Part shown: positions 1-21,267 of the stretch, piece after piece | Numbering within the stretch: position 1 is the stretch's first letter | Layout: every line of letters starts with the position of its first letter | Source: a virus | Virus record (IMG/VR): IMGVR_UViG_3300025759_000853 | Coordinates: 1 to 21,267 of that record | Strand: one strand, 5' to 3' | Length of the DNA: 21,267 nucleotides | Position numbers and translations under genes: made by a program | Notes under the pieces: generated by a model | What the model was told of the DNA's origin: nothing | What the model saw: the letters and a program-made list of their open reading frames with translations, nothing else | Database searches by the model: none

Positions 1-261
1 AATTGATTCGGTGTATAGTATATCAATAGCTACCACGTCTTCTCTCCCTTTTGGAATACCGTTAATAACTATATTTTCTATATCATTAACCATAAACTCA
101 TTAAACCCCTTTTCGTACCTACTTTGGTAATCTGTTACTTCTTTAGATACAAATTGGACCTCCGAAAACGGGGCATAAGGAGAATATTCACCATCATCAT
201 ATTTCCATCTATAACTGATATAAGGGAATATTTCTTCAAAAGGTTTTATTTTTTCTGCCAT
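1..261 (-). CDS. Nozzle-like tail protein, C-terminal piece (partial, runs off the left edge)
   Basis: An open frame starts at ATG 261 and stays open through 87 codons to base 1, so the 3' end is missing. It starts 12 bases after the stop of the 1301-residue gene, behind an A-rich leader (TTAATTAATAAAAAAA). The protein starts MAEKIKPFEEIFPYISYRWK and continues with YDDGEYSPYAPFSEV and, near residue 78, VVAIDILYTES. An arrangement of F-P-x-x-S-Y-R-W-x-Y-x-D-G-E-Y-S-P-x-x-P-F-S-E is, as I recall it, a conserved block in the middle of the large stabilisation/nozzle protein (P22 gp10/T7 gp12-like beta-propeller) of many marine podovirus-like phages. There it follows the block that here sits at the start of the upstream gene. 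I infer that this gene supplies the remaining propeller strands. The coding call is strong; the functional call is from memory of the family. Confidence 0.6.
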   Translation of the reverse strand, partial: MAEKIKPFEEIFPYISYRWKYDDGEYSPYAPFSEVQFVSKEVTDYQSRYEKGFNEFMVNDIENIVINGIPKGREDVVAIDILYTESI

Positions 262-273
262 TTTTTTTATTAA

Positions 274-3200
274 TTAAACGCGGTTGTCAGGAAAGTTACT
301 ACCAAATTTTATCTTAATAACCCCTACGCTAAAATCTTCAATTATGGCCATAGTTGCTGCGCCCGAGCCGTATGTGGGATTTTCAATTGCCTTGGCAAAA
401 GCAGCTTTTTTGTATTCTGGAATAATCCAAAAACTATGATTATACACTCTAGACCAGCCTTTAAAATTTGAAGGAAACCTTATGGTATTACCATGCTTTA
501 TAACGTTATATGGCAACTTAAAGTTATTCGGCATAATTAGATATTTTAAGCGGCTAAAATAAGTATTTGCATTTATTTCTTCACCAATTTGAGCATAAAT
601 AAACCAATCGTTAGGATATGATATTTTAGCTTCTATATAAGGGGGGTTATAAGATCCAAAAAAAGCTACTTCTCTTTGCTCAGGGGTTAAAACACTAATG
701 CCGTTTTTAGTTACTTCTGCCACCGAATTATACCCATTTGCATAATAAATTGTATCTATGCTAGTGCTGAGAGCTTTTTGGCTTGGAATAACAAATTCTT
801 CTACTGTATTAGAATATTTAAATGTTCCATCGTCATACCTTATAAAACCAATTGCATAAAAAGTTTTTCCCGCATTTGTGGACGGAAAAGCATTAGATGG
901 CAATGGAATAGTATATGTAGCGGTTTTACCATCAGAAGAAAAATTTATTTCTCTTTCAGTAAGTTCTTTTGAGCTTGTAGTCCATCCTGATTGTCCTCCT
1001 GTACTATTAAATGCATTTAAAAAATCATTTACATTACTAGGCTTAGTTCCACCTTGTTTGTTTATGTAATAAGCGCCTACGCTTTCTATTTGTGGTATTC
1101 CAGCAACATTAGTTTCTTTATCCCAAACAATAGAACCAGAAATGCCATTATTAGTATCTGATCCGTAATTGGAACTATTATTACTTAATCCCATGTTGGT
1201 TAAAACAGGCGGTGTTAATTGAAAAGATTGTATCTCAGGTTCAACAACAGGAGCATTTTTAGCGTTATCTATTAGTTTATAGTCTGAAATAAATGTTTCG
1301 CCTGTTTCATTAACAACTACAAAAAATGAATAATAATAATCAATTGTATCTATAGGAGCTTTTTTCTGGCCAAAGAAAAAACTTTTTTCTCTAATAGACC
1401 TTTTTATACTGGTATCATTGTCTAAAAAAGTTAACCTATTTGTAGGGTCAGCCATAGTTGCAGCATTACCTGCTTGATTGCTAAAAGGGTAGGGAAACTC
1501 GCTTGCGGCTTTTAAATAATAACCTTTTGTTGTAACGCTATAATCTTTTGATCGTATTGTTAATTTACCTTCTAAATAAGCTCGGCTTCTATCAAAATAT
1601 TGCCGACCCGCTCTTTCTTTGCCAATTGCTTCAACTAATGGCGGTGGCGTTGCGGTAGTTATAACGGTGGCATCTTTAGGTGTAGTAAAAGAAAAAACAC
1701 TACCCCACTTTTTATCGTTTATTACTTTGTTTAAACTTTCAGAATTATTTACCGTTCTATCATTATTAGAATTAACTGTTTGTACAGGATTAGAAAATGC
1801 TGCGATATAATATGTTGTTTCAGCTGTTAATCCCGTAATGTCTGCCTCAAAATTTAAAAAATCATTAGCAGATTGATTAAGATGATTATTAGCTTCCGTT
1901 AATGTAATATCTGTAGCAGTGTGTTTTGTAGCAGAAGTAGCCCAAGTATCTAAGTCAGGGCTTCTACCATCATTTTTTATAGACGCTACTTGAGTATTTG
2001 AATTTGGAAAAGGTGGTGCAGTAGATATATAAAACCCAATATCGCTAAGATTCTTTCCATAATTATGTAACCGCCCTTTTAATGTAACGCTTTCATGGTC
2101 TAAATCTGTAAAAGATTCACTTTGAATATTTTTAGTAAAAACCCTTGGCCCGCCAATAATATTTGGGTTTACAGTAGTATTTTTATTTGATATATCGCTA
2201 AATCTATTTACTGGATTAGTATAATAGGTAACGCCATCAACAATAATGTACCCAACTGCCGACCAATTTTCGTTTTGAGGTTTGATACCTTCTTCTAATA
2301 AGTTATAATACTCAGAAAAATTTATATTTTCAATTTCAATTGGGCTTGTGTTTTCATATCTACCGACTTTAGTACTATCACCATTTGCTGAAAAAGTAAA
2401 ATCATTTTTAGAAACTTTTGTTGAAATTGAATTAGAGTTATTTATTATTTGATCTTTTGTTGTCCAAACACCATTTGAGGACTGCTTTATTTCATCAGAA
2501 GTTGACGGCCTAGATACTATTATTCCTATATCATCAATATTAAGCGTTTCATCAATACCCGTAACGTCTAAATCATAATCTAATAGTATTGTATCTTTTA
2601 TACCATTAGCGTCTGTTGAATTAGGTTTTAACCTCCAGTCTAAATTACTTATATAAAAATTAGGTTTTTCCGGAACTTTTGGTAATTCAAATTGTTTAAT
2701 ATCCGAAACAGTTTCTCCTACCGAATTAATTATATATGTAAAATAATAAACACTTTCTTCAGGTTTTAAATCAATATAGTCATTTACATTTAATTTAATA
2801 CCTCCGCCATTTTCAAAATCATATTCGCTAATAGGCACTTTATACGAAGACCCGTCTGTAGATTCGTTGCCAGTATAAGTTTTGTTTAAAATATCAAAAG
2901 CTTTAGATTCTTCTTTACTAAAATAAAAACCTATTTCTGTAGCTTCTTCTGACCCATTAATTACGCTAGATTTATTGCCTTCATAAAAACCTCGTAAAAA
3001 AGCATCTCCTGAAAAATTACTTTCAGTTACATTTAAAGTTTTTATAACTGGTTTTACAAAACCATTTGTTTTAAAAATATTTGGAGCAGTTGAAGACGTA
3101 GATAAACTGTCTCCATATGTAACTCCGTTCTTATTTTTAATATATGGTACCCAATAGTAATGTTTATTAGGTAAAGGATAGTCTTCAACAATTATTTCAT

Positions 3201-4179
3201 TATCAATAAATTCACCTGGAATAATAGATCCTTCATCTATTAACTCTTGCACCGTAGGCGCAGGCTCATTTGTATTTATTCTAGGTTGAGAAATATAAAT
3301 ACCAACTTCATCTGGTGGTATCCCGCCCGTATTTTTTACAATAGACTTCCATTGGAATTTTTCCGAGCCTGGTATTCTTACGGGGGCTATTGATTTAATT
3401 TCGCTTGCGACTGTCGTAGATGCATTGTTATCTAAAATTTCCACTTTAGCTATATCTCCGTATACTTTTTTATTTTGGCCTTTTAATTTGCTAAAAGGTA
3501 CAGCATAGAGATCTCCAGTAGTTAAATTTGCGTCATAGTGAGGAGACGTTGTGTCTGTTTTTACTATAGTATAGTTACCTTTAGTTACATTATTATCTGC
3601 TTCAACATCAATTGAAGAAACTTGATGGGAATCACCACTTTCTATCCCCTCTATTAATTCATCTACAGTCTCAGCAGTCGTTGACCATATAAAGCCTGAT
3701 TCCTCAACAATTCCATTGCCGTGCTTTGTTTCGCTAATTAATTCAATTCCGTCTAATGTATTTCCCTCTATTGAAAAATCTATAAGTCCTAAAGAAGGGT
3801 CTTCAGATTTATTATTATTTTCATCTATTATTTCAAAATCGGAATCATTTAGCGCTTCGTCTATAACTAAGTCGCCACCTCCAGTACCAAAATTTTCATT
3901 TAAAGTAATTGTTTCTGCTTTTTTACCTGATGCAGAAGGATGGTCCTTTATTACTGTTATATCTCTTTCTTCAAATACGCGATTATAAATATGAGTTGTG
4001 CCAGAAGAATGATCTACTGGAATGTCTTTAAATTCACCAGTAGTTGCTGTGCCTCTAAACTTTTCAATATTTATTTTTTTAGGCTCGTTTTCCCCGTCGG
4101 TATAAAATAACATGTTATCAACTATGTTGATTCCAGTAATTAATCTATTTGGACTAAAATTTAAAATTTTACTTGCCAT
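274..4179 (-). CDS. Giant nozzle-associated tail protein with tandem FN3-like domains
   Basis: A 1301-residue virion protein. Residues 1-80 (ILNFSPNRLITGINIVDN, then LFYTDGENEPKKINI, then DITVIK near 73-78) match, from memory, a conserved propeller block of marine-phage stabilisation/nozzle proteins. About seven divergent beta-sandwich-like units follow, at roughly 140-255, 260-366, 373-500, 505-663, 670-834, 845-972 and 980-1132. Several share a mid-domain G-[FYI]-x-[FYI]-S motif (GFIWS, GIYIS, GFYFS, GIIVS, GFYIS) and a late aromatic strand followed by N-x-x-G (FTYIINSVGE, VVVNETGE). Unit 5 ends in the FN3-like TTYYIAAFSNP and FSFTTP. Residues 1133-1301 are a separate C-terminal domain that I do not recognise. 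No signal peptide or membrane segment is evident. The gene starts 2 bases after the upstream stop and ends 12 before the next start. Likely role: part of the tail nozzle carrying surface-exposed Ig-like domains. The FN3 call is moderate and the nozzle call rests on the N-terminus. Confidence 0.58.
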   Translation of the reverse strand: MASKILNFSPNRLITGINIVDNMLFYTDGENEPKKINIEKFRGTATTGEFKDIPVDHSSGTTHIYNRVFEERDITVIKDHPSASGKKAETITLNENFGTGGGDLVIDEALNDSDFEIIDENNNKSEDPSLGLIDFSIEGNTLDGIELISETKHGNGIVEESGFIWSTTAETVDELIEGIESGDSHQVSSIDVEADNNVTKGNYTIVKTDTTSPHYDANLTTGDLYAVPFSKLKGQNKKVYGDIAKVEILDNNASTTVASEIKSIAPVRIPGSEKFQWKSIVKNTGGIPPDEVGIYISQPRINTNEPAPTVQELIDEGSIIPGEFIDNEIIVEDYPLPNKHYYWVPYIKNKNGVTYGDSLSTSSTAPNIFKTNGFVKPVIKTLNVTESNFSGDAFLRGFYEGNKSSVINGSEEATEIGFYFSKEESKAFDILNKTYTGNESTDGSSYKVPISEYDFENGGGIKLNVNDYIDLKPEESVYYFTYIINSVGETVSDIKQFELPKVPEKPNFYISNLDWRLKPNSTDANGIKDTILLDYDLDVTGIDETLNIDDIGIIVSRPSTSDEIKQSSNGVWTTKDQIINNSNSISTKVSKNDFTFSANGDSTKVGRYENTSPIEIENINFSEYYNLLEEGIKPQNENWSAVGYIIVDGVTYYTNPVNRFSDISNKNTTVNPNIIGGPRVFTKNIQSESFTDLDHESVTLKGRLHNYGKNLSDIGFYISTAPPFPNSNTQVASIKNDGRSPDLDTWATSATKHTATDITLTEANNHLNQSANDFLNFEADITGLTAETTYYIAAFSNPVQTVNSNNDRTVNNSESLNKVINDKKWGSVFSFTTPKDATVITTATPPPLVEAIGKERAGRQYFDRSRAYLEGKLTIRSKDYSVTTKGYYLKAASEFPYPFSNQAGNAATMADPTNRLTFLDNDTSIKRSIREKSFFFGQKKAPIDTIDYYYSFFVVVNETGETFISDYKLIDNAKNAPVVEPEIQSFQLTPPVLTNMGLSNNSSNYGSDTNNGISGSIVWDKETNVAGIPQIESVGAYYINKQGGTKPSNVNDFLNAFNSTGGQSGWTTSSKELTEREINFSSDGKTATYTIPLPSNAFPSTNAGKTFYAIGFIRYDDGTFKYSNTVEEFVIPSQKALSTSIDTIYYANGYNSVAEVTKNGISVLTPEQREVAFFGSYNPPYIEAKISYPNDWFIYAQIGEEINANTYFSRLKYLIMPNNFKLPYNVIKHGNTIRFPSNFKGWSRVYNHSFWIIPEYKKAAFAKAIENPTYGSGAATMAIIEDFSVGVIKIKFGSNFPDNRV

Positions 4180-4181
4180 AA

Positions 4182-4430
4182 TTATATTTCTGTATATTCT
4201 ACAACTACAAAGCCATCATTTTGCCTTATATTATTAATTTTTTCAAGGCTGTCTATACTTAATAAATCTTCTATATATAGTTCCGTTCCAACATTTATTA
4301 TGTCGCCTTCCGAAAAATTAATATTTAAATTATATTTATTTTTAATAGAATCTATTCTAATATTTGAGCTTGGTGTAAAAATAGTTTTTACATTTATTTC
4401 GCTATCTGGATATAAAGTTATATTTGCCAT
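4182..4430 (-). CDS. Small beta-rich protein between the nozzle pieces
   Basis: An 82-residue protein starting MANITLYPDSEINVKTIF and ending in a beta-like GFVVVEYTEI. Its ATG overlaps the stop of the 573-residue gene by one base (TAATG), and its own stop is 2 bases before the next start, so it is probably translated by termination-reinitiation. It alternates hydrophobic and polar residues as expected for beta strands, with GDIINVGTELYIEDLL in the middle. There is no membrane segment, signal peptide or cysteine. I do not recognise the family. Its place between two genes carrying nozzle blocks suggests a structural or assembly role in the same tail part, which is inference from position only. 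Confidence 0.6.
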   Translation of the reverse strand: MANITLYPDSEINVKTIFTPSSNIRIDSIKNKYNLNINFSEGDIINVGTELYIEDLLSIDSLEKINNIRQNDGFVVVEYTEI

Positions 4431-6151
4431 TATGGTGTATATGTTATATTTACAGTAGGCGTTGATCCAAGCAATTCTGGTGTGCCTACAAAAATTATCC
4501 CAGGCACTATTCCAAACATTGCTGTAGAACTATCTTCAACGTAATAATCAAAATCTACCCCTTCTGTTTTTCCAGTAACTGTTACTGTTAAATTTTCAGG
4601 ATTAAAAGAAGACTTAAAAGCTGTATCAGCTACAGCTGTCAATAACGTATTTGAATCATTTAAAGGTATTATAGCTTGGGCCGTTTCTCCCGCTGCCACT
4701 GGCCCTAAAATATATGATGCCAAAGGGTTGGGTGCCGTATTGTATTCATACTCCCCTGAATCTAATTTACCTACAAAAACTCCTGATAAATTTAAGTTGA
4801 GAGTTGATGTGTAATAAGTTCCAGACGGTGTTCCATTATTTATTCTAATAGTTTTTGCTGTTATTCCAGATATACTTGGCACCCCTATTTCATAACTAGT
4901 ATTAGCTGCAAAACCCGTTATATATACGTTAGCTCTTGCACCGATCGCCCCTTGAATGGCAGAGGCAAAAATTAACCCAGAAGGCGTTGAAGTAAAACTT
5001 GCAGAACTACTCAGGCTACTTACGTCTGTAGCATTTGCATATGCCCCATCAGAGGCTGGTGCAGAAATATTTAAATAACAGTCCCCACTGGTTTTGAAAA
5101 AACTACCGTAGCCCGTATTCCTGTGATCTGTCTCATCGGTTAAATTACCTGAAACTGTGTCTTCTATAACAGGCACAACAACATATTCAGTACCACTTAT
5201 TCTGTTAATAGGAGGTGGTGTATCTGTTGTAAAAGTTAAAACAGATCCATCTGTAGTCCCAACAGAATTTGTTGCAAAAGCCGCATAACTTATTAATTTA
5301 GATGACGGCAACGAGGTTATATCTGCTGTAAAATTATTTTTTATTGGCGTAACTGATGTTGAAAGATTTGTAATCCCCGCGCCACCAGTTTTTAATTCAT
5401 TAATTGTTAACGCAGTTCCGCCGGTATTGTAGCCATAATAAAATCCCTGTGCTGTAACTCCCACACTATTATTAGTTAATGAGCCCAATAATGTAGCAGT
5501 TGTTTCTGTTTTAGAAATAATATTTTTAGTTATAACCTCAGGTGCTAATTTACTTGGTTGGGATGCTGTAACAGTACCAATAAGCAATTCTCCTTGATTA
5601 GTATAAGGGTTAGGCGCTGTTAATCTTGCTGTTATTTGTCTTGATACAGCACTACCAGTTTCGTTGGCTGAAAAATCTTCAGTTATAGCCTCAACAGAAT
5701 TTGCACCTATTCTAGCTGTTAATGATATAGACCCATCTTGTGCTACAGATCCAGTAACCCCAGCATCTTCAAATGCTAAATTTATGGTTTCCACAACAGA
5801 AGCTTTTACACTATCTATTAATATAGTGTTTACTTCGTTAGCTTCAATATCATATTCAAAAATACCGTCGGCTTTATCACCTGTAACAAAATAATATATT
5901 TTTTTTTCCTCTGGATGCGGATAACTTCCAACAACAGTAGCGTTAGGATTTGTGGCAGAAGTTAAACCATATATACTTTGATTAGCAATTAATTCATTGC
6001 CTTTCAAATTTTCAATAGCGCCTACATTCCCATCTTCTGAAAAATCAACGCTAATATTTAAAGCATCTCTATATTCACCAGGAGGCAATATTTTTTCCTC
6101 AATATCTCTATTTATTTTAGCCTTAGTGAACGTTCTTTTACTTTCTGCCAT
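4430..6151 (-). CDS. Nozzle-like tail protein, N-terminal piece with an FN3-like domain
   Basis: A 573-residue virion protein. Residues 1-113 resemble the N-terminal blade of P22 gp10/T7 gp12-type nozzle (stabilisation) proteins of marine phages. The blocks are ILPPGEYRDALNISVDFSED (21-40), GAIENLKGNEL (44-54), and IYYFVTGDKADGIFEYD (85-101) before NTILIDS. In the homologs I recall, this strand leads directly into the LNFSPxxLITGIN block, which here starts the gene two further on. Instead, residues 115-200 form a beta-like region. Residues 203-309 form a Bacteroidetes-style FN3-like domain (PEVITKN, TETTATLLGSLTNNSVG, GFYYGYNT, FATNSVGTTDG, LTFTT). Residues 315-573 form a Ser/Thr/Gly-rich beta region that I do not recognise. 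The leader is A/T-only before ATG, six bases after the connector gene's stop. The protein is probably at the distal end of the short tail. The nozzle call is moderate; the FN3 call is firmer. Confidence 0.6.
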   Translation of the reverse strand: MAESKRTFTKAKINRDIEEKILPPGEYRDALNISVDFSEDGNVGAIENLKGNELIANQSIYGLTSATNPNATVVGSYPHPEEKKIYYFVTGDKADGIFEYDIEANEVNTILIDSVKASVVETINLAFEDAGVTGSVAQDGSISLTARIGANSVEAITEDFSANETGSAVSRQITARLTAPNPYTNQGELLIGTVTASQPSKLAPEVITKNIISKTETTATLLGSLTNNSVGVTAQGFYYGYNTGGTALTINELKTGGAGITNLSTSVTPIKNNFTADITSLPSSKLISYAAFATNSVGTTDGSVLTFTTDTPPPINRISGTEYVVVPVIEDTVSGNLTDETDHRNTGYGSFFKTSGDCYLNISAPASDGAYANATDVSSLSSSASFTSTPSGLIFASAIQGAIGARANVYITGFAANTSYEIGVPSISGITAKTIRINNGTPSGTYYTSTLNLNLSGVFVGKLDSGEYEYNTAPNPLASYILGPVAAGETAQAIIPLNDSNTLLTAVADTAFKSSFNPENLTVTVTGKTEGVDFDYYVEDSSTAMFGIVPGIIFVGTPELLGSTPTVNITYTP

Positions 6152-6157
6152 TTAATT

Positions 6158-7108
6158 TTAATGTTTAATCCATTTAGCTTTGCCTCTTAACACTTGAGCA
6201 AGCTCTTGCAAGTTATAATTACTTAGTCGTATTTTTGCATTTCGCATTTTAGCACTAGCTTCTTTTTTATACAAAGGAGCTAATTGAGCACTAGCGGGTC
6301 TAAGCTTTGATAAATTATAAAGCATATATGCGTATAGAGCATCTTCCGCTAGTTTAGGTACATATACATCAGATAAATCGCCATTGTCAGCAATGCCATC
6401 TGAAATATAATCTACAACAACTAAATCTTGTTGTCTGCTACCTAACGACCCATCAAAATAAATTAATCCATTTGGTTCGTCTAATATGTATGTAGCGCCA
6501 GCATTCATTTCTTCGGGAATACCGCCATATCTTTTATTAAAATACGAAAAATTATCATTATTATAGTTTGAATAATAATAATCTTGTGCTGATTGTGTTA
6601 TATTTGCTGGATTTGTTGAATCCTGGAATCTTTCAAGCATCGAAGCCTGATCAGCAACAACAAGCCCACCATCTTCATCAAAAGTATAATTGTACTCGTT
6701 ATCTTGCACAGGAGCAGTTGGATTGCCACTTTTTCGTTTTCTCAATAAAACATTTTTAACACCGTCTTCACCTACATGCGACACCTGTACTAAAGACACA
6801 TAATCTTGCGGCAACATCACTGTTAGCGCATCCCCGACTTCAACTTCAATACTCTTTTCACTATGCAATATATCATAACTAAACTCTTGCACCCCTCTTT
6901 GTGCCCAAAAGTCTACTTCATAACGAGGCACCTTAGCTAATGCTTTGTCTTCCCCTATGTACGCAACAATAAAGTTATTTATAACATCCTCTAAGCTTGT
7001 TCTTCTGTAATAACCCAATCCTTTAAAGTCAGCTGGAATATTTGCAGTGTCGCCTTGCTGGTCTGCATAGTAAGCTCTTTCGTTATATAGTTTTCTTGTT
7101 TCTGCCAT
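6158..7108 (-). CDS. Head-to-tail connector / neck protein
   Basis: A 316-residue soluble protein between the head genes and the nozzle-like genes. Its layout fits the adaptor family of short-tailed phages (T7 gp11/P22 gp4-like). There is an N-terminal helical part (about 36-80, SLEDVINNFIVAYIG and DFWAQRGVQEFSYDIL). A beta segment follows with the typical VMLPQDYVSLVQVS (about 97-110), then a central loop rich in Tyr and Asn (YYYSNYNNDNFSYFNKRYGG). A C-terminal helical part (about 244-316) is rich in Ala, Leu and Lys and holds AEDALYAYMLYNLSK and RNAKIRLSNYN. The helix / LPxDY strand / C-terminal helix order is the main evidence. Its ATG overlaps the stop of the upstream gene by one base (TAATG), suggesting coupled translation. 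By analogy it would form a ring under the portal. Assignment to a named family is from pattern memory. Confidence 0.55.
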   Translation of the reverse strand: MAETRKLYNERAYYADQQGDTANIPADFKGLGYYRRTSLEDVINNFIVAYIGEDKALAKVPRYEVDFWAQRGVQEFSYDILHSEKSIEVEVGDALTVMLPQDYVSLVQVSHVGEDGVKNVLLRKRKSGNPTAPVQDNEYNYTFDEDGGLVVADQASMLERFQDSTNPANITQSAQDYYYSNYNNDNFSYFNKRYGGIPEEMNAGATYILDEPNGLIYFDGSLGSRQQDLVVVDYISDGIADNGDLSDVYVPKLAEDALYAYMLYNLSKLRPASAQLAPLYKKEASAKMRNAKIRLSNYNLQELAQVLRGKAKWIKH

Positions 7109-7812
7109 TATCGTTCAGATTGAATTATTTGTTGTTCTTTAGCTGCTGCTGCCTGAGCTACATCTGCTGCCCTTATAATAACGCCCGCGTAGGCTAATAT
7201 TTTAATAACTAATTCAGGAAACTCAGAACTGTGAAGCTCAAAGTTTTGATAATCACTAGCGCCTGTATTTGCTATAATTTGCCCAGCTGTTGTACCTCCA
7301 ACCCATTTTGGTTCCGCAGGCTTCCTAATATAATTTATTAGTATTTCTGTTATACCTGTAGTTGGATATATTACAAGCCCCGATTCATGCCTTACATACA
7401 ACGGGTTTTTTACCGTTGGCTTCATTAAAGGTGATCGGTTTAAATATAGTATATTTTTATTTGTAGTTTCATCTACATATATACCACCTGTAGATACGCT
7501 GCTTAATCTATAAAAATTAGTAGGGTAAGCATAATAACTGCTTGTTGTGTTACCTTCCGCATTTGAAAAAGTGCTAGTAGCTATTGTTTCTTCGTTTTCA
7601 AATAAAGCAATTTTTTCTTCTGTATTTCTTCTAATATCAGAATACTCCGAATCATTTGACACTACATAATTTCTTAAAGAAAAATAACTTTCAAATATTT
7701 CACTTTGAGCTTGAAGGGCAAGTGTATTAAACTCCTGCGGCACAATATAACCTCTATTTTCTTTATTAAGGATATTTAAAACTGTTTTGTAAACATTATC
7801 TATACTTACCAT
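7108..7812 (-). CDS. Probable neck / head-completion structural protein
   Basis: A 234-residue soluble protein starting MVSIDNVYKTVLNILNKENR. Residues 1-60 look helical, with GYIVPQEFNTLALQAQSEIF, an arrangement I recall as conserved in marine phage virion proteins at this locus. The middle is beta-like and contains YAYPTNFYRLSSVS and a P-L-x-V-R-x-E-S-G-L-x-I-Y-P segment. The C-terminus is helical (SSEFPELVIKILAYAGVIIR, then an Ala/Gln-rich end). A central beta part enclosed by terminal helices again resembles portal-adjacent ring proteins. It starts 21 bases after a strong hairpin and its stop overlaps the next start (TAATG), so it is probably co-translated with the next connector-like protein. 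No enzymatic motif is seen. Structural role is inferred from position and layout; which ring it forms cannot be told. Confidence 0.5.
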   Translation of the reverse strand: MVSIDNVYKTVLNILNKENRGYIVPQEFNTLALQAQSEIFESYFSLRNYVVSNDSEYSDIRRNTEEKIALFENEETIATSTFSNAEGNTTSSYYAYPTNFYRLSSVSTGGIYVDETTNKNILYLNRSPLMKPTVKNPLYVRHESGLVIYPTTGITEILINYIRKPAEPKWVGGTTAGQIIANTGASDYQNFELHSSEFPELVIKILAYAGVIIRAADVAQAAAAKEQQIIQSER

Positions 7813-8660: not shown

Positions 8661-10112
8661 TTAGTCTTTCAATAAGAAGAAGTTGTTCGCTCCTTGAGTA
8701 ATCAAACATCTTTCAGATAGGAAAGAAACTCTCATCTCGTCAGTAGTAGAAGTGTAAGCTCCACCTACAGAACCAGTGATCCAAGTTTTCATTTTTCTAT
8801 CATCAGTTTCAGATGCTCTATAACGAATATGCAAGAAAGGTCTTTTAATATTTTGACCTAGTTGCTGATCGTATACAGTTGATGTACCAGCAGGAATAAT
8901 AACACCTTCAATATCACCAAATCCACCTCTTGTAGCAAAATCATTTAGATATTTCCAGTCAGTTTTATAGAAGTCATAAGAACCTCTTCTAAACCCTGCA
9001 AATCCCAAATTAAGCGCCATTTCTTCAGAATTGTTAAATACACCATAAGATGTACCGCCAGATCCATAAGAATTCTTAGTAGCTAGTCCATCATCAATAG
9101 ACAAAGACAAATCTCTATCTGCATAGATCATATTTTCTTCAATAGCACCATTTTTATCTAGTTGCTTAAGAATAGTATCAAAGTCAGAAAGATCAGTATC
9201 TGCAGAAAGATCTGTAAATACATTCCCTCTATCTTCTAGAGCAGCAAATAGCCCTTCAGAACCAGTAATGTTTGATGGGAAACCAGATCCAGCTGCACCA
9301 GCTTTTTCTACAGCTTCTACCATAGCCATTTCTAGATAATCTTCAAATCTCTGACGAGTTTCGTGCTCAGATTTTAGGTACCATAGGTAACCAGAAGCTC
9401 CGTTTTCAGAAGTAACTTCAATCCATCCAATTTGTGCAGTATCAGATCCATTAACAGCGTAATTATCTTTTAGGATAATTGGCTTGTTAGTGTAAGAGCT
9501 GTAAGATGCGTCAATTGAACCATCCATTCCATCAGTGCCTTTTGCAAACTCAGAACCATAAACAAGTACAGTTGCGTGATCGTAAGAAGCAGCACTAGTT
9601 ACAGCATTAAAGTTAGCAGCAGTATAACATACGGCAGTAAAAGTACCAGTATCCCCAGCAGCAGCAGCACCAGCTACAGTTACAACACCTTTAAGTACGG
9701 GTCCAGTGGCAGCGCCAGCTGAAGTTTGTCCTTGTACCATAATAGTTTGTCCTACACGCACAGCAGGAGCAGCACCAGCAGCATAAGCTACAGCATCAGG
9801 GTTTGCAGCAAAGTTTACAGTAAATACTACGGTGCCATCAGCGCCAGCAGTTGCTAAATCTACATCTTCATAACGAATATGTAGTCTACCTTGCTCAACC
9901 CATCTGATTTCGTCAGATGCAGAAGGCATCTCAGCAGACACCATACGCAAGAAAGAAGAGATAGAACGATTTCCGTAAATCTCAGCTTCTTTTTCGTATA
10001 CGTCTGGTAAAAATTGTTTTGTAAAGTCAAAATCGGTAATATAGTTACCTTGGAATAACGTCCCTTTACTAGGCGAGGGAGTTAAGTTTTCAATTCCAGT
10101 TGTTAAAGCCAT
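8661..10112 (-). CDS. Major capsid protein
   Basis: A 483-residue protein just after an acidic scaffold-like gene and before connector genes, which is the usual place of the major capsid protein. It begins MALTTGIENLTPSPSKGTLF, continues QGNYITDFDFTKQFLPDVYE, and has EIRWVEQGRLHIRYEDVD near 68-85. A Gly/Ala/Val-rich insertion at about 86-190 (VRVGQTIMVQGQ, LKGVVTVAGAAAAGDTGTF) looks like a beta-barrel-type accessory domain. The helical spine EHETRQRFEDYLEMAMVEAV (about 249-268) fits the long helix of the HK97 fold. The C-terminal part includes HIRYRASETDDRK and ends SERCLITQGANNFFLLKD. The coding sequence is visibly less AT-rich than its neighbours, consistent with a highly expressed gene. 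The leader is A-rich (GACTTAAAAA) with no Shine-Dalgarno. The capsid call rests on position, size and layout; no catalytic motif exists to confirm it. Confidence 0.8.
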   Translation of the reverse strand: MALTTGIENLTPSPSKGTLFQGNYITDFDFTKQFLPDVYEKEAEIYGNRSISSFLRMVSAEMPSASDEIRWVEQGRLHIRYEDVDLATAGADGTVVFTVNFAANPDAVAYAAGAAPAVRVGQTIMVQGQTSAGAATGPVLKGVVTVAGAAAAGDTGTFTAVCYTAANFNAVTSAASYDHATVLVYGSEFAKGTDGMDGSIDASYSSYTNKPIILKDNYAVNGSDTAQIGWIEVTSENGASGYLWYLKSEHETRQRFEDYLEMAMVEAVEKAGAAGSGFPSNITGSEGLFAALEDRGNVFTDLSADTDLSDFDTILKQLDKNGAIEENMIYADRDLSLSIDDGLATKNSYGSGGTSYGVFNNSEEMALNLGFAGFRRGSYDFYKTDWKYLNDFATRGGFGDIEGVIIPAGTSTVYDQQLGQNIKRPFLHIRYRASETDDRKMKTWITGSVGGAYTSTTDEMRVSFLSERCLITQGANNFFLLKD

Positions 10113-11368: not shown

Positions 11369-13729
11369 TTACCTTGGCTCAAATCTGCTAAGGTCAATAC
11401 CACCTAATACGTCATTGCCTGAAGACTCAAAACCCTTCCTTGGTTCTGGATTAGATGGAGGTTTTTGCAATTCAATTTGTTTTTTAGCGTCAAGCTCCAT
11501 TTCTTTAAGCTTTACATTTAAATCAAATTCATATTGCATTAGATCTTTTTTAGTTGCCGCTTCTCTTTCTAATTTTTTAACATCAAGCTCTGCTTGCAAT
11601 TGAGCTAATTTACCTTTAGCCTCAACCTTTAAGTTTTCTGCTTGAGCCTTAGCTAATTCAGCAGCTTGAGCAGCTTGTGCGTTTGCTTGAGATTGTGCAG
11701 CTATATTTCTTTCCGCTTTTAATTGGTCAGTAGCTTCTTTTTTAGCTCTTCTATATTTTAATAATTGATTAGCTAGTTTTATATTTTTAACTTGTCTAAT
11801 ATCAATTACATCTTCTAAATGTATTTGATCCCTTGAAAGAGCAGCTTGTATATTATTTTCCACTAGCTGTTTTTCTTCTTGATCTGGATCTAATTCTAAG
11901 AAAATTCCAAAGTCATGTATATGAAGTTTATCCATTTCTTTTAATGCCCCTACACTGAACCTACCAATACCCCCAATCATTGCATCTCTTTGTGGGTGGT
12001 ATTCTAATACGTCCTTAATACGTATAGATATTGCCTCAGCTAACGAAGATGTTATATATAATGAGCTATGCAATATATGCCTTGTTGCTGTATTTGAATT
12101 TGCAGCCGCAAGCTTTTGAACACCTACGAGCGCATAGGGATCTGGATCGCTACCATCTCTAGCTTCGTTTAAACCAGTTACGTCCCTTAGCATTTGTAAA
12201 TAATAATTATATGCTTGGATTAATAACTGAGTTTGTTGGCCGCCGCCCCCTGGCAATTCCTGAATTGGCACCTTGCCTCCATTCATATCACCGTCTTGGG
12301 TCATTGACCTACCTATAATAGATCCTGTTTGGAAGTATAGGTTTAAAGCCTCTTGTGGATTATAGTTTGTTCCATTACCAAGATCAATTTCAGCTAGACC
12401 GTCAGCATCTACATAAACACCAGAAGGCGTCATTCTTTGTATTACTTGCTGTAATTTTAAATGAGTTAGCTGTATAAGATCAGCATAAGTTACCATTCGG
12501 CTAACTAAACTTTCGATTTTCCCTTTATACATTCTAGGGGCGCTAACAATGTAATTCATCATTACACGGTTAACATTAGAACTAGGGCGCACCATATTAG
12601 ATGCTTTTTTCCACTTAAGTAGTTTATTAGACCCTAAGACCATTACGCCTTCGTATATGACCTCTTGTGCCTGTGCTACTTTTTCAAATCTTGTTCTTTG
12701 GTCTTTAGGCGGATTAAAAGTATCATCTTTTTTAATTGCTTTTAAAGCCCCAGAAGCAGTTTCTTTTATTTTATATACACTTTGTTCCCAGCTTTTCCAA
12801 TTAAAATATAATACAGTAAGAGTATTAGTATCTACTGTATCGTTAGAATCGTTGTTTGTATAATCGTAATTATTATAATTTGAAGATTGTTTTACTATTT
12901 GATCAAATTCTTCATCGGTTAATTCTGGAAATTGTTTTTTAAGTTCGTTAGATTTTATTTGTTTAACTTCACCAAAATAGTATACGTCTTCAAAATTAGG
13001 ATCTTCTGTGTATGAATATATTAAATTCGCAGGATCTACATACTCTAATTTAATACCATCTGTATTATTAAAAGTATGTTTTGTTGCCGCAATACCAAGC
13101 ACAGTTTGATCGTAATCAATTCTTTTCTTTAGTTCTGGATAATTATTTCTTTTAAAAACATTATCAATTGCTTGTTCCTGCGCTATTTCAATAGATTGTT
13201 TATAACCAATCTGCATATGCAGCTCAAGTTCTTCTGCATTAGAAGGCAGATCTTCTTGCTTAATATTTCGCACATCAACACCAAGCTTTTCATCTATCTC
13301 TGTAATCAAGTCCTGAGTATTCATATCCTCAAGGATCATTTCAACAAAATTAGTTCTTTCTTTTACAGAGGTTGGATCCTGTGCAAATGCTTTTATTGTA
13401 AACAGCCTGTCTTGCATGCCATTTACAACAATATCTACAAATTTAGGTATAATAGGTACTGGCTTCCAATCTAAGTTCAAATATGATAAATCTCCATTTA
13501 CTGAAAATTCATCTTTATATTTTTGAACAGACTGCTCTCCTCGCGCATATAGTCTCAATCTATGAAACTCACGCTGATTTTGTAAAAATCTACCCGTCCC
13601 AGAGTTTTTTCTAAACCATTCGTTTTGTATACCTCTGGCCACTTCCATCCCATAAGCTTCGCTTGCTTTTTCTGCGTCGCTTACTGATTGGCTGGGAAAT
13701 TGGGTAACTTGTCCTGTAGCTTCTGCCAT
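11369..13729 (-). CDS. Portal protein with a coiled-coil C-terminus
   Basis: A 786-residue protein directly after the large terminase gene, 2 bases past its stop. Portal rings form the DNA entry vertex and dock the terminase and the tail. Supporting features are the N-terminal LYARGEQSVQKYKDE, the WKPVPIIPKFVDIVVNGMQD block, and MVTYADLIQLTHLKLQQVIQ in the middle. Also present are DPANLIYSYTEDPNFEDVYY and, in the C-terminal half, the portal-like VTGLNEARDGSDPDPYALVG followed by KLAAANSNTATRH. From about 662 to 755 runs a long Ala/Gln/Lys/Glu segment (KAERNIAAQSQANAQAAQAA, then AELDVKKLEREAATKK), predicted coiled coil. The last 31 residues are Pro/Gly-rich. The length is large for a portal but normal for this kind of phage, and the extension could form a barrel reaching into the capsid. 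Confidence 0.8.
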   Translation of the reverse strand: MAEATGQVTQFPSQSVSDAEKASEAYGMEVARGIQNEWFRKNSGTGRFLQNQREFHRLRLYARGEQSVQKYKDEFSVNGDLSYLNLDWKPVPIIPKFVDIVVNGMQDRLFTIKAFAQDPTSVKERTNFVEMILEDMNTQDLITEIDEKLGVDVRNIKQEDLPSNAEELELHMQIGYKQSIEIAQEQAIDNVFKRNNYPELKKRIDYDQTVLGIAATKHTFNNTDGIKLEYVDPANLIYSYTEDPNFEDVYYFGEVKQIKSNELKKQFPELTDEEFDQIVKQSSNYNNYDYTNNDSNDTVDTNTLTVLYFNWKSWEQSVYKIKETASGALKAIKKDDTFNPPKDQRTRFEKVAQAQEVIYEGVMVLGSNKLLKWKKASNMVRPSSNVNRVMMNYIVSAPRMYKGKIESLVSRMVTYADLIQLTHLKLQQVIQRMTPSGVYVDADGLAEIDLGNGTNYNPQEALNLYFQTGSIIGRSMTQDGDMNGGKVPIQELPGGGGQQTQLLIQAYNYYLQMLRDVTGLNEARDGSDPDPYALVGVQKLAAANSNTATRHILHSSLYITSSLAEAISIRIKDVLEYHPQRDAMIGGIGRFSVGALKEMDKLHIHDFGIFLELDPDQEEKQLVENNIQAALSRDQIHLEDVIDIRQVKNIKLANQLLKYRRAKKEATDQLKAERNIAAQSQANAQAAQAAELAKAQAENLKVEAKGKLAQLQAELDVKKLEREAATKKDLMQYEFDLNVKLKEMELDAKKQIELQKPPSNPEPRKGFESSGNDVLGGIDLSRFEPR

Positions 13730-13731
13730 CT

Positions 13732-15966
13732 TTATTGTATTATTTTACTTTTTAATCCTGAATTATTATATTTTGAAAATCCAAAATCTACTTTTTTCTT
13801 TTCTCTTATACTACGCGGAGAATATAAATGTCTTTGGCAAGCCATTATAGCTAGTCCGCTGCTAATAGATGCGTCGTATTTTGTTCTATTGTTTACATTA
13901 AATTTAGCCCAGTCTTGCAATGTTCTTTGAAAATACATATTACCGTAGTCTCCATTTTCATGCATACCAACATGGTTTTGTATATAAGATTCAATTGCAG
14001 ACGCGTGAGCTTGCCTTATATCTTCAGAGCTATTAGGTATACCACCTAATTCTTTTTCAGTTACAGATAATTTATTAAATAATTTATCAGGCCTATTCAT
14101 AGAATAACCTCTATAGCCTCTTCTTTTAAGATAATATAATAATCTAGGTTTGTTATTTTCTGCCAATATAGGCATTCCGTAAAAAACGATTGCCATTAAT
14201 ACATCTTCAAAAAATATTTCAGCAGTTTGTGGTCTAGCCACATATTCTAAAAAAAATTGTGAACTAGGAACATCTGGATGCATACTAAACGCTGTTAATC
14301 CATGCAATGCCCCATTTGAACCGCCACCGTCAACTGTTCCGCTAATATCATAGCTATCACAGCCAAATGCTCCAAATTCTTTATTCCCAGGATACTTTAT
14401 TCCATTTTTAGTTTCAAAAGCATTTTGCATTTGTAGACTTGGTATCCAAGATAATTTAAATCTTCCGTTTTTGTTAGGATGCCACTCTACTTTAGTATCT
14501 TTTACACCGTTAGCCCATTGAAAAGAGCCTGTTGTAACATAGCCGCTTAAAACCATTTCTTCATTATAATCTATTTGCTCATATATTTTTGCAAGATTAA
14601 ATATTGAATCTTTGGTTTCGTCTCTAAAAGCATGCTGTTCTGTTCTTGGAAATTGCCTATAAAATTCATTTAAAGCGTCAGAGTTATTTTTAAGCCCATC
14701 TGCTTCATTCTCCCAATGCTCGATGACTCCAGTATAGACATTTCCTCCGTCGATCCCTTCAACTGGTTCTTCAGGAGTATCGAAGACAGGAAATCCATAT
14801 TTATTGATGAATCCTTCGTAGTTCCATTCCATAGGAATGAACAAAGCGTATAATCCACTAGGAGTCTGCCCATTGCGATTTCTTTTTGTTTTTGTAAGGT
14901 CTGAGTCATCATAAAGTTTTTTAAAGTTTTCTCCTCCTTTATCTAAAGCATTGGAGGTTGACCCCATCATACATTTGCCAACAACTCTAGCGCCTAACCT
15001 TAAACAAGTTTTAGTTACACGCCAGTTATTTAATATATTATCTGGTTTATCCCATTTTCCCGATTCATCGTGAACTAATAATTTTAATTTTTCTCCATCA
15101 TAACTATTGTCGCCAGTATTTTTCCAGTCAATAGTCGTATCCAGACCTTCTTCTGATTGCTCAGTTTTTACTTTAAAACTATTTCTAGTAAGTTTAGAGG
15201 CTGGAAGCCTATAAGATAATTCTGTTTTTGGTTTGTCCATTCCATCTTGTATAGGCTTAAAGAAGAATGGGTAATTTGATGATATAGGGACTACTTTGTC
15301 TGTAAACATTTTTTTGGCATCAGACCCGGACTTTGATAATATACCGAATCTTGAGTCTCTTGATATTGTAGCCACGTTAACAGTTTCTGATGATGCCATG
15401 AAGCTAAAGCCAGACCGTCTGTTTTTGAGGTAACACATTCCATAACATCTTTCGTCTGCTTTGCAAGCTTCCCAGAAATAATAGAATAATTTGTTTGACT
15501 GTCTAAATTCGGGTGCACCAACGTCAATTTTTGTCCAGTTGAGGTACATATAGTGTGACCCTGTAAGGTAACACGGCTCCCCATCGCACATGAACCAATA
15601 ACCATCATTACGCCTATTAAATTCAATTTCAATATAATCGTAGTATTCTTCTTTAATATCATCTGGAAAAGATTTAAATTCATGTATTGATTTAATCTTA
15701 TTTAAAGATCCTGGCTTTTGTCGTTTTCTAAATACTTGATTTTCTTTTTTTAAATCTTGCCCATCTATTTTTTCAGGTGCTAAAGGCAAGGCTATCTTAA
15801 GTCCTTGAATCTCATATATTTCACCAATAGTACCGTCTTTGCTAATTACAACACAATCTAAATCTTTATTGTACCCGTAATTATATTTTTTATATTTATT
15901 ATTTCTTTTAACTTCTTTGGTGTTAATATGGTCTGTATTTATATTATACAGTGTTTGTTTATACAT
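13732..15966 (-). CDS. terL: Large terminase subunit (DNA-packaging ATPase/nuclease)
   Basis: A 744-residue motor protein that pumps DNA into the procapsid and cuts it. Residues 1-170 are an N-terminal extension. The ATPase domain has a degenerate Walker A at 181-188 (KNRRSGFS) and Walker B at 294-301 (LKLLVHDE, catalytic Glu301). The coupling motif is MGSTSN at 334-339. The nuclease domain, with an RNase H-like fold, has an acidic strand at about 534-540 (FGCDSYD, Asp537) and a second acidic residue at about 603 (PILAENNKP). The C-terminus is basic. The ATG overlaps the stop of the small upstream gene by one base (TAATG). The portal gene follows after 2 bases, in the usual terminase-portal order. 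Two other minus-strand open frames lie inside it and are only shadows. Confidence 0.88.
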   Translation of the reverse strand: MYKQTLYNINTDHINTKEVKRNNKYKKYNYGYNKDLDCVVISKDGTIGEIYEIQGLKIALPLAPEKIDGQDLKKENQVFRKRQKPGSLNKIKSIHEFKSFPDDIKEEYYDYIEIEFNRRNDGYWFMCDGEPCYLTGSHYMYLNWTKIDVGAPEFRQSNKLFYYFWEACKADERCYGMCYLKNRRSGFSFMASSETVNVATISRDSRFGILSKSGSDAKKMFTDKVVPISSNYPFFFKPIQDGMDKPKTELSYRLPASKLTRNSFKVKTEQSEEGLDTTIDWKNTGDNSYDGEKLKLLVHDESGKWDKPDNILNNWRVTKTCLRLGARVVGKCMMGSTSNALDKGGENFKKLYDDSDLTKTKRNRNGQTPSGLYALFIPMEWNYEGFINKYGFPVFDTPEEPVEGIDGGNVYTGVIEHWENEADGLKNNSDALNEFYRQFPRTEQHAFRDETKDSIFNLAKIYEQIDYNEEMVLSGYVTTGSFQWANGVKDTKVEWHPNKNGRFKLSWIPSLQMQNAFETKNGIKYPGNKEFGAFGCDSYDISGTVDGGGSNGALHGLTAFSMHPDVPSSQFFLEYVARPQTAEIFFEDVLMAIVFYGMPILAENNKPRLLYYLKRRGYRGYSMNRPDKLFNKLSVTEKELGGIPNSSEDIRQAHASAIESYIQNHVGMHENGDYGNMYFQRTLQDWAKFNVNNRTKYDASISSGLAIMACQRHLYSPRSIREKKKVDFGFSKYNNSGLKSKIIQ

Positions 15967-16995: not shown

Positions 16996-17328
16996 TTAAT
17001 ATGTCCATATTGAAGTAACACGGGATAAGTCTAATCCAAGATGTACAAAATTTGATTTTCTTGATATACCAATTCTTTTACAACCTAAATTTATTGCCGC
17101 TTCTACTATTTCATAAACAGGTGTACCACCAATAGCAGCAACATCAATAGCTAAGCCTGTTGTATGTTCACCCGGACTTTTTTTCTTTGCTTCAATAGGA
17201 TGATCTGGCGATCTATATCCAGAAGTGATTATAAGTTCTGCGCCAATAGCTTTTTCAAGATTGTTTGCAAATTCTATCATTCTAGGATTTAAATCTTCTA
17301 AATTTACATTTGATTGCGCTTTTTTCAT
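16996..17328 (-). CDS. M15-family peptidase, probable endolysin
   Basis: A 110-residue peptidase of the M15 family (D-Ala-D-Ala carboxypeptidase / L-Ala-D-Glu endopeptidase type), which cuts cross-linking or stem peptides in peptidoglycan. The family signature is visible as SGYRS (36-40, Arg39), SPGEHTTGLAIDV (51-63, with His55 and Asp62 as likely zinc ligands), and NFVHLGLD (93-100, His96 as the third ligand). It has no signal peptide, so export would depend on the holin. It is short, a bare catalytic domain without a wall-binding module. The start is fused to the stop of the small membrane protein gene (ATGA). With the holin and membrane protein upstream it makes up a lysis cassette. Confidence 0.8.
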   Translation of the reverse strand: MKKAQSNVNLEDLNPRMIEFANNLEKAIGAELIITSGYRSPDHPIEAKKKSPGEHTTGLAIDVAAIGGTPVYEIVEAAINLGCKRIGISRKSNFVHLGLDLSRVTSIWTY

Positions 17329-18882: not shown

Positions 18883-19860
18883 TTATGTTGTATAAGTTCC
18901 AGAACCTGTAAATTTTAAAATAGTGTCTGTACCATCAGTAGTTACCGTTGGTGAACCGGTTGTTGTGCCAGAATATGATGCGGTTGGTAATCTTAAAATA
19001 ACAACTCCAGAACCACCGGAAGCCCCGTAAATAGAAGAATCTTCATCACCGCCGCCGCCGCCGCCGCCGCCTGTATTAGCAGTACCAGCTGTTGGCATTA
19101 TGCCGAATACGGTTCCCTGTTCTCCATCACCTCCGGTTCCGCCGCCACCAGAGCCTCCTGATCCACCACCATTACCATCACCCGATCCGCCGCCACCACC
19201 GGAATATGTAATTGAAGTTCCAGTAATTGAATCAGCGCGTCCGGATCCGCCATCACCTCCAACATTACCACCGGGCGAATCACTACCAGCGGTTCCAGCT
19301 CCACCGCCACCGCCTCCACCGTCGCCGCTATCGCCATTTCCACCGTTATTTCCATATTGAGTAATACTTGCGCCGGAATTAGTAGCAAGCCCGCCATCTT
19401 CACCTCTTGATCCACCTCCACCACCAGAAGCACCATCTCTACCAGTTCTTGGATCAGAACTTGAAGCATTATTTCCACCACCACCTCCGCCGGTAGCGGT
19501 AGGTGGGGTTATGCCCGAAAAAGAAAAATAACTTGCGTTCCCATTATTTTGTGCAGTATTATGGTCAGTAACAGATACTCCACCTGCACCTACAGAAACC
19601 GTAATTGTAATACCAGCAGCTGAAATTGTTTCAACTCCTTCATCAACTGAACTTACAAATCCCCCAGCTCCACCGCCTCCAGCTTCATCATTAGTTCTTG
19701 AATACCCGCCAGGACCACCCCCACCAATAACAAGGAAATCTAAATCATATGCGGTAAATGCGTCTGGCCAAATCTGTGTTGATCCAGCGTATACTTTTGA
19801 TAATTGAGAGCCGCCTTTATATATAGCGGAAAGTGATGAAGTATTTCGATGTATTGCCAT
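18883..19860 (-). CDS. Glycine-rich adhesin-like tail protein
   Basis: A 325-residue protein of three parts. Residues 1-33 (TSSLSAIYKGGSQLSKVYAG, then STQIWPD) form an attachment segment of a type repeated in phage tail proteins. Residues about 38-275 are extremely rich in Gly with Ser, Asn and Asp, interrupted by short strands (LDFLVIGGGGPGG, ISAAGITITVSVGAGG, SITYSGGGG), as in polyglycine-II type adhesins such as the T4-like phage gp38. Residues 276-325 end with SGGSGVVILRLP, then PTVTTDGTDTILKFTGSGTY, the canonical C-terminal strand set of glycine-rich phage domains. The gene overlaps the fibre stop by one base (TAATG), so fibre and adhesin are probably made together. Likely role: receptor recognition at the fibre tip, inferred from architecture. 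Two other open frames here arise from the GGN-rich composition. Confidence 0.7.
   Translation of the reverse strand: MAIHRNTSSLSAIYKGGSQLSKVYAGSTQIWPDAFTAYDLDFLVIGGGGPGGYSRTNDEAGGGGAGGFVSSVDEGVETISAAGITITVSVGAGGVSVTDHNTAQNNGNASYFSFSGITPPTATGGGGGGNNASSSDPRTGRDGASGGGGGSRGEDGGLATNSGASITQYGNNGGNGDSGDGGGGGGGAGTAGSDSPGGNVGGDGGSGRADSITGTSITYSGGGGGSGDGNGGGSGGSGGGGTGGDGEQGTVFGIMPTAGTANTGGGGGGGGDEDSSIYGASGGSGVVILRLPTASYSGTTTGSPTVTTDGTDTILKFTGSGTYTT
19049..19071 (-). repeat. CCG/GGC trinucleotide run in the adhesin gene
   Basis: Seven uninterrupted CCG units plus CC (23 bases on the plus strand) encode eight consecutive glycines of the adhesin. Whole-unit slippage keeps the frame, so the run could vary the length of the glycine segment between isolates. 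Confidence 0.8.
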
Positions 19861-21267
19861 TATGTAATAAAATATATTGTATTTGCATCAGGGGTCAAAG
19901 CATCATATTGAGACTGGGTGCCTGACCAATATTTCAGTGGTGATCCACCATTTTGATTATCTGTACTAGGAGCGGGTGGTACGTCAATCCAATCAGTAGC
20001 ACTTCCAGTAGAGCTCAAGAGCTGGCCACTAGTCCCAGATGAGTTTGAAGAATCATAATACGCCCCTGTTACCCTAGCATTTCCTGATACGTGTAATTTC
20101 TGACTCGGACTCGTAATACCTATTCCTACGTTGCCTGAAGAGTCTATGCGCATTCGTTCTATGCCTGCGGTTGAAAATTTAATAGCGGCAGACTCTCTAT
20201 TCAAAAAGTGAACTTCTGAATCATCTTCAAGAATCATTACAAATCCATCACTTGACGTAGTCCCTGAATTTGAGTTTATTAATGCTATCCTTGAATCAGT
20301 TGCTCCATATACAGTTAGGTTGGTAAATGGACTCGTAGTACCTATTCCTACATTCCCCCCGCTCGTTATGCGCATTCGTTCTTGAAATTCTGTTAGCAAC
20401 CGCAAATAAGATGTGCCACTTGTGCTATTAGTTCCTATGTCAAATCCGGCAGTAGTTTGTGAATAAATATTTGTGTATTGACTACCTGTAAATTGAATTT
20501 CGTTAATTGCGTTTTGATTTGGAATTTCAATTTGACCTGCGCTTGTGATTTTCATTCGTTCGGTATTGCTTGTACCAAAAAGAATAGGCGCACTCATTCT
20601 TTGCCACAGAAGCATAGTATCATTTAATCCAGAACCATACCCCAAATAGCCTTTATTTCCTGTTGGGTCATCAAAATTAATTGTATTACTACCACTTCCT
20701 CTTGCGGCCGTAGTTTCTAATCTTAAAATTTCACCTGAGCCCTTAATATGTAATTCAGCGCCTGGACTAGTAACACCTATTCCTACATTCCCACTCGAGG
20801 TTATACGCATTGCTTCGGAATCGACAGAACCCCCGCCGCCACCAGTTCTAAAGACTAATTGGCCAGAGCCCACAGTTGCTCCATAAGCTCTTATTCTTAA
20901 ATCATCCCCTGCCCTATCTAATACGCCTGCGCTTGTTTGAGATGTAGTTAAAGGGCCTTCCCACACAATAGCACCATTAACTTCAAGTTTTTCGGTTGAA
21001 GGTGTTTTACCTATTCCTACTCTACCAGAAGAGTCTATGCGCATTCGTTCTGAACCAGCAGTTTTAAAAGCCATCTGACCATAAGTAGTAGTAGGGGCAT
21101 CAAAAGTTACTAAATCATCAATAGCGACTACTTGACTCGTGCTTACAGTAAGCCCTCTTCCCGAAGTAAAACCTAATTCTAAATGCTTTACGGTAGCAAA
21201 TCCTGTTGAAGAACCACCGTTTACGTGAAGTGGCGCAGCAGGAGTCGTAGTCCCTATTCCCACTTTA
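19860..21267 (-). CDS. Tail fibre protein with repeated shaft modules (partial, cut at the right edge)
   Basis: The reading frame is open to base 21266, so the gene continues past the window. A GTG at 21263 is only a codon inside the repeat, not the start. The visible part (468 codons) is built from modules of about 60-85 residues, each with a hallmark like RMRIDSSGNVGIGTTSP followed by a short strand (KLHVSG, ELHIKG, KLEVNG). Counted from the GTG, modules begin near residues 74, 152, 237, 297 and 371, with part of one at the edge. The motif is typical of tail-fibre and other virion proteins of marine phages. Many such proteins end in a self-cleaving S74 chaperone. This one does not. It ends in YWSGTQSQYDALTPDANTIY and FIT, a short C-terminal signature I recall in other tail proteins. 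The protein probably trimerises as a fibre shaft. Start site and N-terminal tail-binding domain are not in view. Confidence 0.8.
   Translation of the reverse strand, partial: KVGIGTTTPAAPLHVNGGSSTGFATVKHLELGFTSGRGLTVSTSQVVAIDDLVTFDAPTTTYGQMAFKTAGSERMRIDSSGRVGIGKTPSTEKLEVNGAIVWEGPLTTSQTSAGVLDRAGDDLRIRAYGATVGSGQLVFRTGGGGGSVDSEAMRITSSGNVGIGVTSPGAELHIKGSGEILRLETTAARGSGSNTINFDDPTGNKGYLGYGSGLNDTMLLWQRMSAPILFGTSNTERMKITSAGQIEIPNQNAINEIQFTGSQYTNIYSQTTAGFDIGTNSTSGTSYLRLLTEFQERMRITSGGNVGIGTTSPFTNLTVYGATDSRIALINSNSGTTSSDGFVMILEDDSEVHFLNRESAAIKFSTAGIERMRIDSSGNVGIGITSPSQKLHVSGNARVTGAYYDSSNSSGTSGQLLSSTGSATDWIDVPPAPSTDNQNGGSPLKYWSGTQSQYDALTPDANTIYFIT
20137..20160 (-). repeat. Direct repeat in the fibre gene, copy 1
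   Basis: This 24-base stretch is identical to 21028-21051, encoding the same RMRIDSS part of two fibre modules. Partial matches recur in the other modules (for example around 20365-20380 and 20800-20815). The identity of the two copies, 0.9 kb apart, makes recombination that deletes or swaps modules possible. Confidence 0.75.
21028..21051 (-). repeat. Direct repeat in the fibre gene, copy 2
   Basis: Identical over 24 bases to 20137-20160; see that entry. The matches stop exactly at the module boundary on both sides. Confidence 0.75.

Follow-up and report, generated by a model that had tools for sequence, protein, structure and literature searches.

The 21,267-bp virus record IMGVR_UViG_3300025759_000853, analysed at its full length and referred to below as the window, raises the question of whether one tail protein can be divided among several genes. 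The nozzle, or muzzle, is a core and usually single-chain gate of short-tailed phages. An earlier note on this DNA had proposed that a single nozzle polypeptide is distributed here over the open reading frames (ORFs) at 4430-6151, 274-4179 and 1-261, with starts 0-12 bases after a stop codon. The coordinates agree with the ORFs found on the minus strand, and the conserved blocks quoted lie in the places assigned to them; a stop codon precedes the ATG of the 274-4179 ORF by 2 nt and that of the 1-261 ORF by 12 nt. The three genes are designated N, M and C.

The N gene (4430-6151, minus strand, 573 aa) is assigned the nozzle N-terminus and propeller blade 1, followed by a 455-aa decoration. Its nozzle block comprises approximately residues 1-118 (5798-6151, minus strand), as indicated by a profile match, the block map and purifying selection. 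The M gene (274-4179, minus strand, 1301 aa) starts with blade 2 and the first strand of the IG1 domain, placed by alignment and the block map at approximately residues 1-92 (3904-4179, minus strand), and continues into a decoration of ~1,200 aa. Large domains are thus added at the break points, as had been suggested, and both decorations are Ig/Fn3-like in appearance. Between N and M lies a fourth ORF, absent from the earlier account (4182-4430, minus strand, 82 aa, dN/dS 0.23 against contig L010), the start of which overlaps the upstream N stop as TAATG. An ORF of 67-84 aa is kept at this place in many split relatives and is absent from L020, L025, L029 and L072, in which N is 866-930 aa long. 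The M stop is separated from the C start by an AT-rich spacer of 12 nt (262-273, minus strand). The C gene start (1-261, minus strand, 87 aa) is cut by the window end and enters IG1 at its second strand; the full-length counterpart in L010 has 1034 aa and extends over blades 3-7 as far as the C-terminus.

The order of transcription on the minus strand is tail-fibre-like and small genes, terminase, portal, scaffold-like protein, major capsid protein, a 258-aa protein, two ring/adaptor proteins, N, the 82-aa ORF, M and the C start. The probable large terminase (13732-15966, minus strand) and the portal (11369-13729, minus strand) were named by position and synteny, and neither ORF has a Pfam match; the scaffold-like protein was named in the same way. 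The major capsid protein (8661-10112, minus strand) belongs to PHROG_13704. The adaptor/ring protein at 7108-7812 (minus strand) matches PHROG_14543 (E 6e-40) and Pfam SU10_adaptor with E 2.6e-5, slightly short of the Pfam cut-off. The ORF at 6158-7108 (minus strand), a probable tail ring/adaptor virion structural protein from its PHROG_13977 match (E 2e-34) and synteny, adjoins the nozzle genes upstream, likewise in intact relatives. Both the window order and the synteny of relatives therefore put the nozzle directly after the ring/adaptor genes of a portal-to-nozzle cluster. Elsewhere in the window, the region 16996-17328 encodes a Peptidase M15 domain (PF08291, E 4.8e-10), a likely endolysin, and the region 18883-21266, upstream of the terminase, encodes a tail protein rich in glycine (PF21722) as well as a fibre that carries Phage_tail_C (PF24243) at its tip.

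Profile matches and alignments assign all three pieces to one family and in the right order, and not to unrelated families. The profile PHROG_14478 (1474 positions) matches N at 2-128 (E 8e-19) and the C start at 191-265 (E 7e-11), with the M block falling between, and the C protein of L010 matches the profile with E 2.6e-89. Concatenated N 1-145, M 1-100 and C 1-87 align in order and with gapless joints to single intact proteins from five isolate or complete phages. This tiling and alignment bear out the proposed division of one nozzle polypeptide among genes, and intact loci show the same block order. Cultured phages of Cellulophaga, Flavobacterium and Maribacter carry the intact counterpart as a single polypeptide. 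In tblastn searches, the N and C queries both matched the same single gene, with shared synteny, in Cellulophaga (phi38:1, Calle) and Flavobacterium (elemo) phages; additional matches were to phi46:3-group Cellulophaga phages for the N query and to Panino and ctfjg026 for the C query. The M protein, the conserved part of which is short, had no tblastn match in isolate phages. The residues beside the new starts have been retained: intact L036 has ADKEILPFEEIFP at the place where the C protein of L010 starts MADKVKPFEEIFP.

As judged from profile comparison and structure prediction, the protein is a muzzle/nozzle of the crassvirus type. Alignment of the intact-homolog profile with the PhicrAss001 gp44 family using hhalign gave a probability of 98.3% (E 1.8e-14) for the N-terminal part and 99.5% (E 2.7e-23) for the C-terminal part. 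An AlphaFold2 model of residues 1-960 of the intact relative L053 (pLDDT 75, pTM 0.72), superseding an earlier one from 25 sequences (pLDDT 49), has its best PDB fold matches in two chains of the PhicrAss001 tail, 7qol_P (E 3.6e-24) and 7qok_A (E 5e-24); the next matches were tail proteins from cyanophage A4 and from SU10. The beta-propeller fold match is that of this intact relative, not of the split chains, and the window pieces are linked to the gp44 family by way of intact relatives. Pfam crAss_MUZ matches intact L042 (E 4e-13) and is reached by neither the window N protein nor that of L010. By capsid protein, the phage records that come nearest are ctfjg026, Panino and the elemo/Cellulophaga phages; in the taxonomy lines of five of these, Crassvirales is not named.

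PhicrAss001 gp44 (PDB 7qok, 7qol, 8ckb) consists of a ring-joining domain and a seven-bladed propeller, in which blades 2 and 3 are separated by IG1 and blade 3 contains IG2, and its length variation results from insertions into the crass and IG2 regions (PMC10172136). The split proteins share with it homologous N- and C-terminal propeller parts and the succession of ring protein and muzzle. However, gp44 is one chain, whereas the split nozzle is interrupted behind blade 1 and within IG1, and new domains are attached to the free C-termini of N and M. The PHROG_14478 proteins of marine Bacteroidota phages (phi38:1 gp97, elemo phages, Panino and ctfjg026) are direct homologs with the same synteny, but each is the product of a single ORF of 946-1612 aa, in which neither break point carries such a large domain. 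The former description of the protein as P22 gp10/T7 gp12-like was right as to the nozzle; the nearest known structure, however, is the crassvirus muzzle, and T7 gp12 and P22 gp10 are more distant. T7 gp12 comprises a seven-bladed propeller gate and a jelly-roll platform (PMC6702177). Both the T7 gp12 and SU10 nozzles are single-chain, and the PDB sequence search with the family profile found no significant match and no sequence relation to them.

The positions of the breaks were compared with the L053 model and with gp44. Break 1 corresponds to the loop 113-125 of the model, between a four-strand unit (64-112) and the strands from 126-147, and would lie between propeller blades 1 and 2 if the blade numbering is transferred from gp44 (PMC10172136). 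Break 2 corresponds to the loop 186-199, which joins the strands 180-185 and 200-208; by alignment with gp44 it falls at about residue 177-185, at the boundary of the first and second strands within IG1, a domain spanning 163-292 in gp44 (PMC10172136). The idea of one partitioned beta-propeller consequently holds for break 1, between blades, but not for break 2, which cuts the Ig-like insertion domain and not the propeller sheet. Likewise, the block at 1-261 does belong to the same polypeptide, but the gp44 alignment makes it a part of IG1 instead of the propeller. Intact distant homologs have insertions at the break-1 site (L183, L190) and, in many of them, insertions of 120-190 aa at the break-2 site, so both loops tolerate insertion.

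The distribution of the split was studied by mapping the blocks on 132 loci. Intact nozzles were found in 68, and 27 records including the window are split with identical breaks, two of which (L011 and L017) stop short of break 2. Every one of a further 79 loci, some on contigs of the first set, has a single ORF. A Bacteroidetes MAG contig (L220) is likewise split (N 675 aa, a 73-aa ORF, M 1114 aa and C 1027 aa), which brings the contigs sharing the three-gene layout with the window to 26 from IMG/VR and one from a MAG. The comparison with related genomes that had been recommended shows the split forms to be one clade and nearly all other relatives to be single-chain: outside this clade, all complete loci have a single ORF, except the half-split L045 and the frameshifted L113. 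Within the clade, the neighbouring ring proteins are down to 63% identical to that of the window. A search of eight split records of 31-65 kb with the full-length profile gave exactly three matches (~1-112, 103-181 and 172-1143) and no intact nozzle copy. Two simple disruptions were also observed. In L113 (9644-12012), inside an intact clade, the nozzle lies in overlapping ORFs, probably through frameshift errors or decay, and in L021 (6491-7709) the N block is broken within the block, unlike in the near-identical L022, probably by a frameshift error.

The tree of the C part points to a stepwise history. Intact L036, L042 and L047 branch first, followed by L045 (support 99) and then by all fully split members (support 100). 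L045 has a separate N and a fused M+C, with a 543-aa ORF between them, and the nozzle tree is thus a staircase leading from the intact form through N|MC to N|M|C. In the ring-protein tree, the split members are grouped and one change is needed, whereas the concatenated ring and capsid protein tree needs four changes; the backbone trees disagree. The four changes are what transfer of the nozzle set from one backbone to another would produce; in agreement with this, some pairs are 94-99% identical in their ring proteins and only 49-79% in the three nozzle blocks. The ring gene is mosaic. An independent fission in L045, considered from the ring-protein tree and its non-homologous N decoration, was dropped, since the nozzle tree makes this locus sister to the split clade. 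A third fission has occurred within the N decoration, where L069 and L013 have at the same point a 25-nt insert composed of TAA, an AT-rich leader and ATG, yielding ORFs of 208 aa and 369/376 aa. The separate decoration ORFs are located at L013:6467-7576 and L069:11607-12737; the decoration remains fused in L016, the ring protein of which is identical to that of L069. Five nozzle ORFs are present in L013, L014 and L069.

The M decoration is a part of the locus that near-identical phages exchange. In L009, the ring genes upstream are 97-100% and N is 87-100% identical to those of the window, but nucleotide identity drops to ~65% over the M decoration, between roughly codon 110 and the stop of M, and is back at ~95% at C; most of the flanking sequence shows 95-100%. 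Against L010, dS is 1.27 in the M decoration and ~0.08-0.26 around it. Such a diverged M decoration within near-identical flanks indicates allele exchange of one module. Pairwise distances are correlated among the three nozzle blocks; however, the M decoration, which lies between them, correlates best with the C start, so that linkage alone could explain the correlation of the blocks. Fn3 was detected in four of the 21 M proteins scanned, the window M not being among the four. The M C-termini of L032, L022 and L030 appear by eye BACON-like (carbohydrate-binding), with no supporting Pfam match.

The most convincing explanation, which we regard as very probable, is stepwise gene fission, after which the chains would rebuild one hexameric gate in trans and display exchangeable, probably receptor-binding domains. 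The ancestor would have been a one-chain muzzle/nozzle with a ring-joining domain, a seven-bladed propeller, IG1 and IG2. Successive fissions would have left the ring-joining N-terminus and blade 1 to N, blade 2 and the first IG1 strand to M, and the remaining IG1, blades 3-7 and the C-terminus to C, each break occurring in an insertion-tolerant loop and the upstream pieces gaining a long C-terminal domain. The chains, most likely in six copies each, would re-associate through the inter-blade and strand-pairing contacts of the single chain itself and restore a gate at the end of the tail. The added Ig/Fn3-like domains probably protrude and bind host surface sugars or receptors. On balance, though with more reserve, we favour the reading that three separately translated chains make up the gate propeller, that a donated strand completes one Ig-like domain and that fission turned loop insertions into exchangeable host-recognition subunits.

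Misassembly or gene decay confined to a single contig is the least credible alternative. Simple frameshifts do appear to break L113 and L021, but the breaks of the window recur in 27 other contigs (26 from IMG/VR and the MAG contig), and all three blocks are under purifying selection, with dN/dS against L010 of 0.12 for the N block, 0.06 for M and 0.04 for C. This agrees with the organised partition, as opposed to decay or sequencing error, that the earlier note had seen in the locus. Post-transcriptional or post-translational joining of the chains, whether through recoding, read-through, an intron or a split intein, is also very unlikely. M and C share a frame in the window, by chance; among relatives the offsets from N to M and from M to C take the values 0, 1 and 2 and the intervening ORFs vary. 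The varying offsets exclude a fixed recoding site and, together with purifying selection, argue against error, decay or recoding, and frameshifts joining the frames do not account for offsets that vary and for ORFs that intervene. The Rfam search found no intron, and the M and C starts, a few residues ahead of their blocks, leave no room for an intein half.

Improbable, though less so, is a working gate formed by C alone, five-bladed or differently closed, with N and M as decorations that use their blades as docking tags. Most family-conserved positions are indeed in C (profile ~172-1143), and variable decorations dominate N and M. However, the blades of N and M are full-length and strongly conserved at the dN/dS values given, their joints with the intact protein are gapless, and the conserved N-terminal segment of the nozzle resides in the N block.

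The clade-wide, multi-gene form of a known structural protein is new. In the literature covered, from which most subscription journals were absent, none of the papers listed describes a muzzle or nozzle divided among genes. The series runs from intact nozzles to nozzles with one, two and three breaks and includes a living intermediate and a 25-nt fission event; it presents a large structural protein being partitioned while its parts stay under selection. Since the new C-termini carry fast-changing surface domains, host range may be tuned by the swap of a single gene. The breaks also offer ready-made split points for the reconstitution of a beta-propeller from fragments. A different enlargement was observed in L047 (9428-15064), where an intact nozzle contains an insertion of ~480 aa inside the blade 1 region, bordered by the linkers VPAVPAVPE and IPAIPAIPG and absent from the close relative L036.
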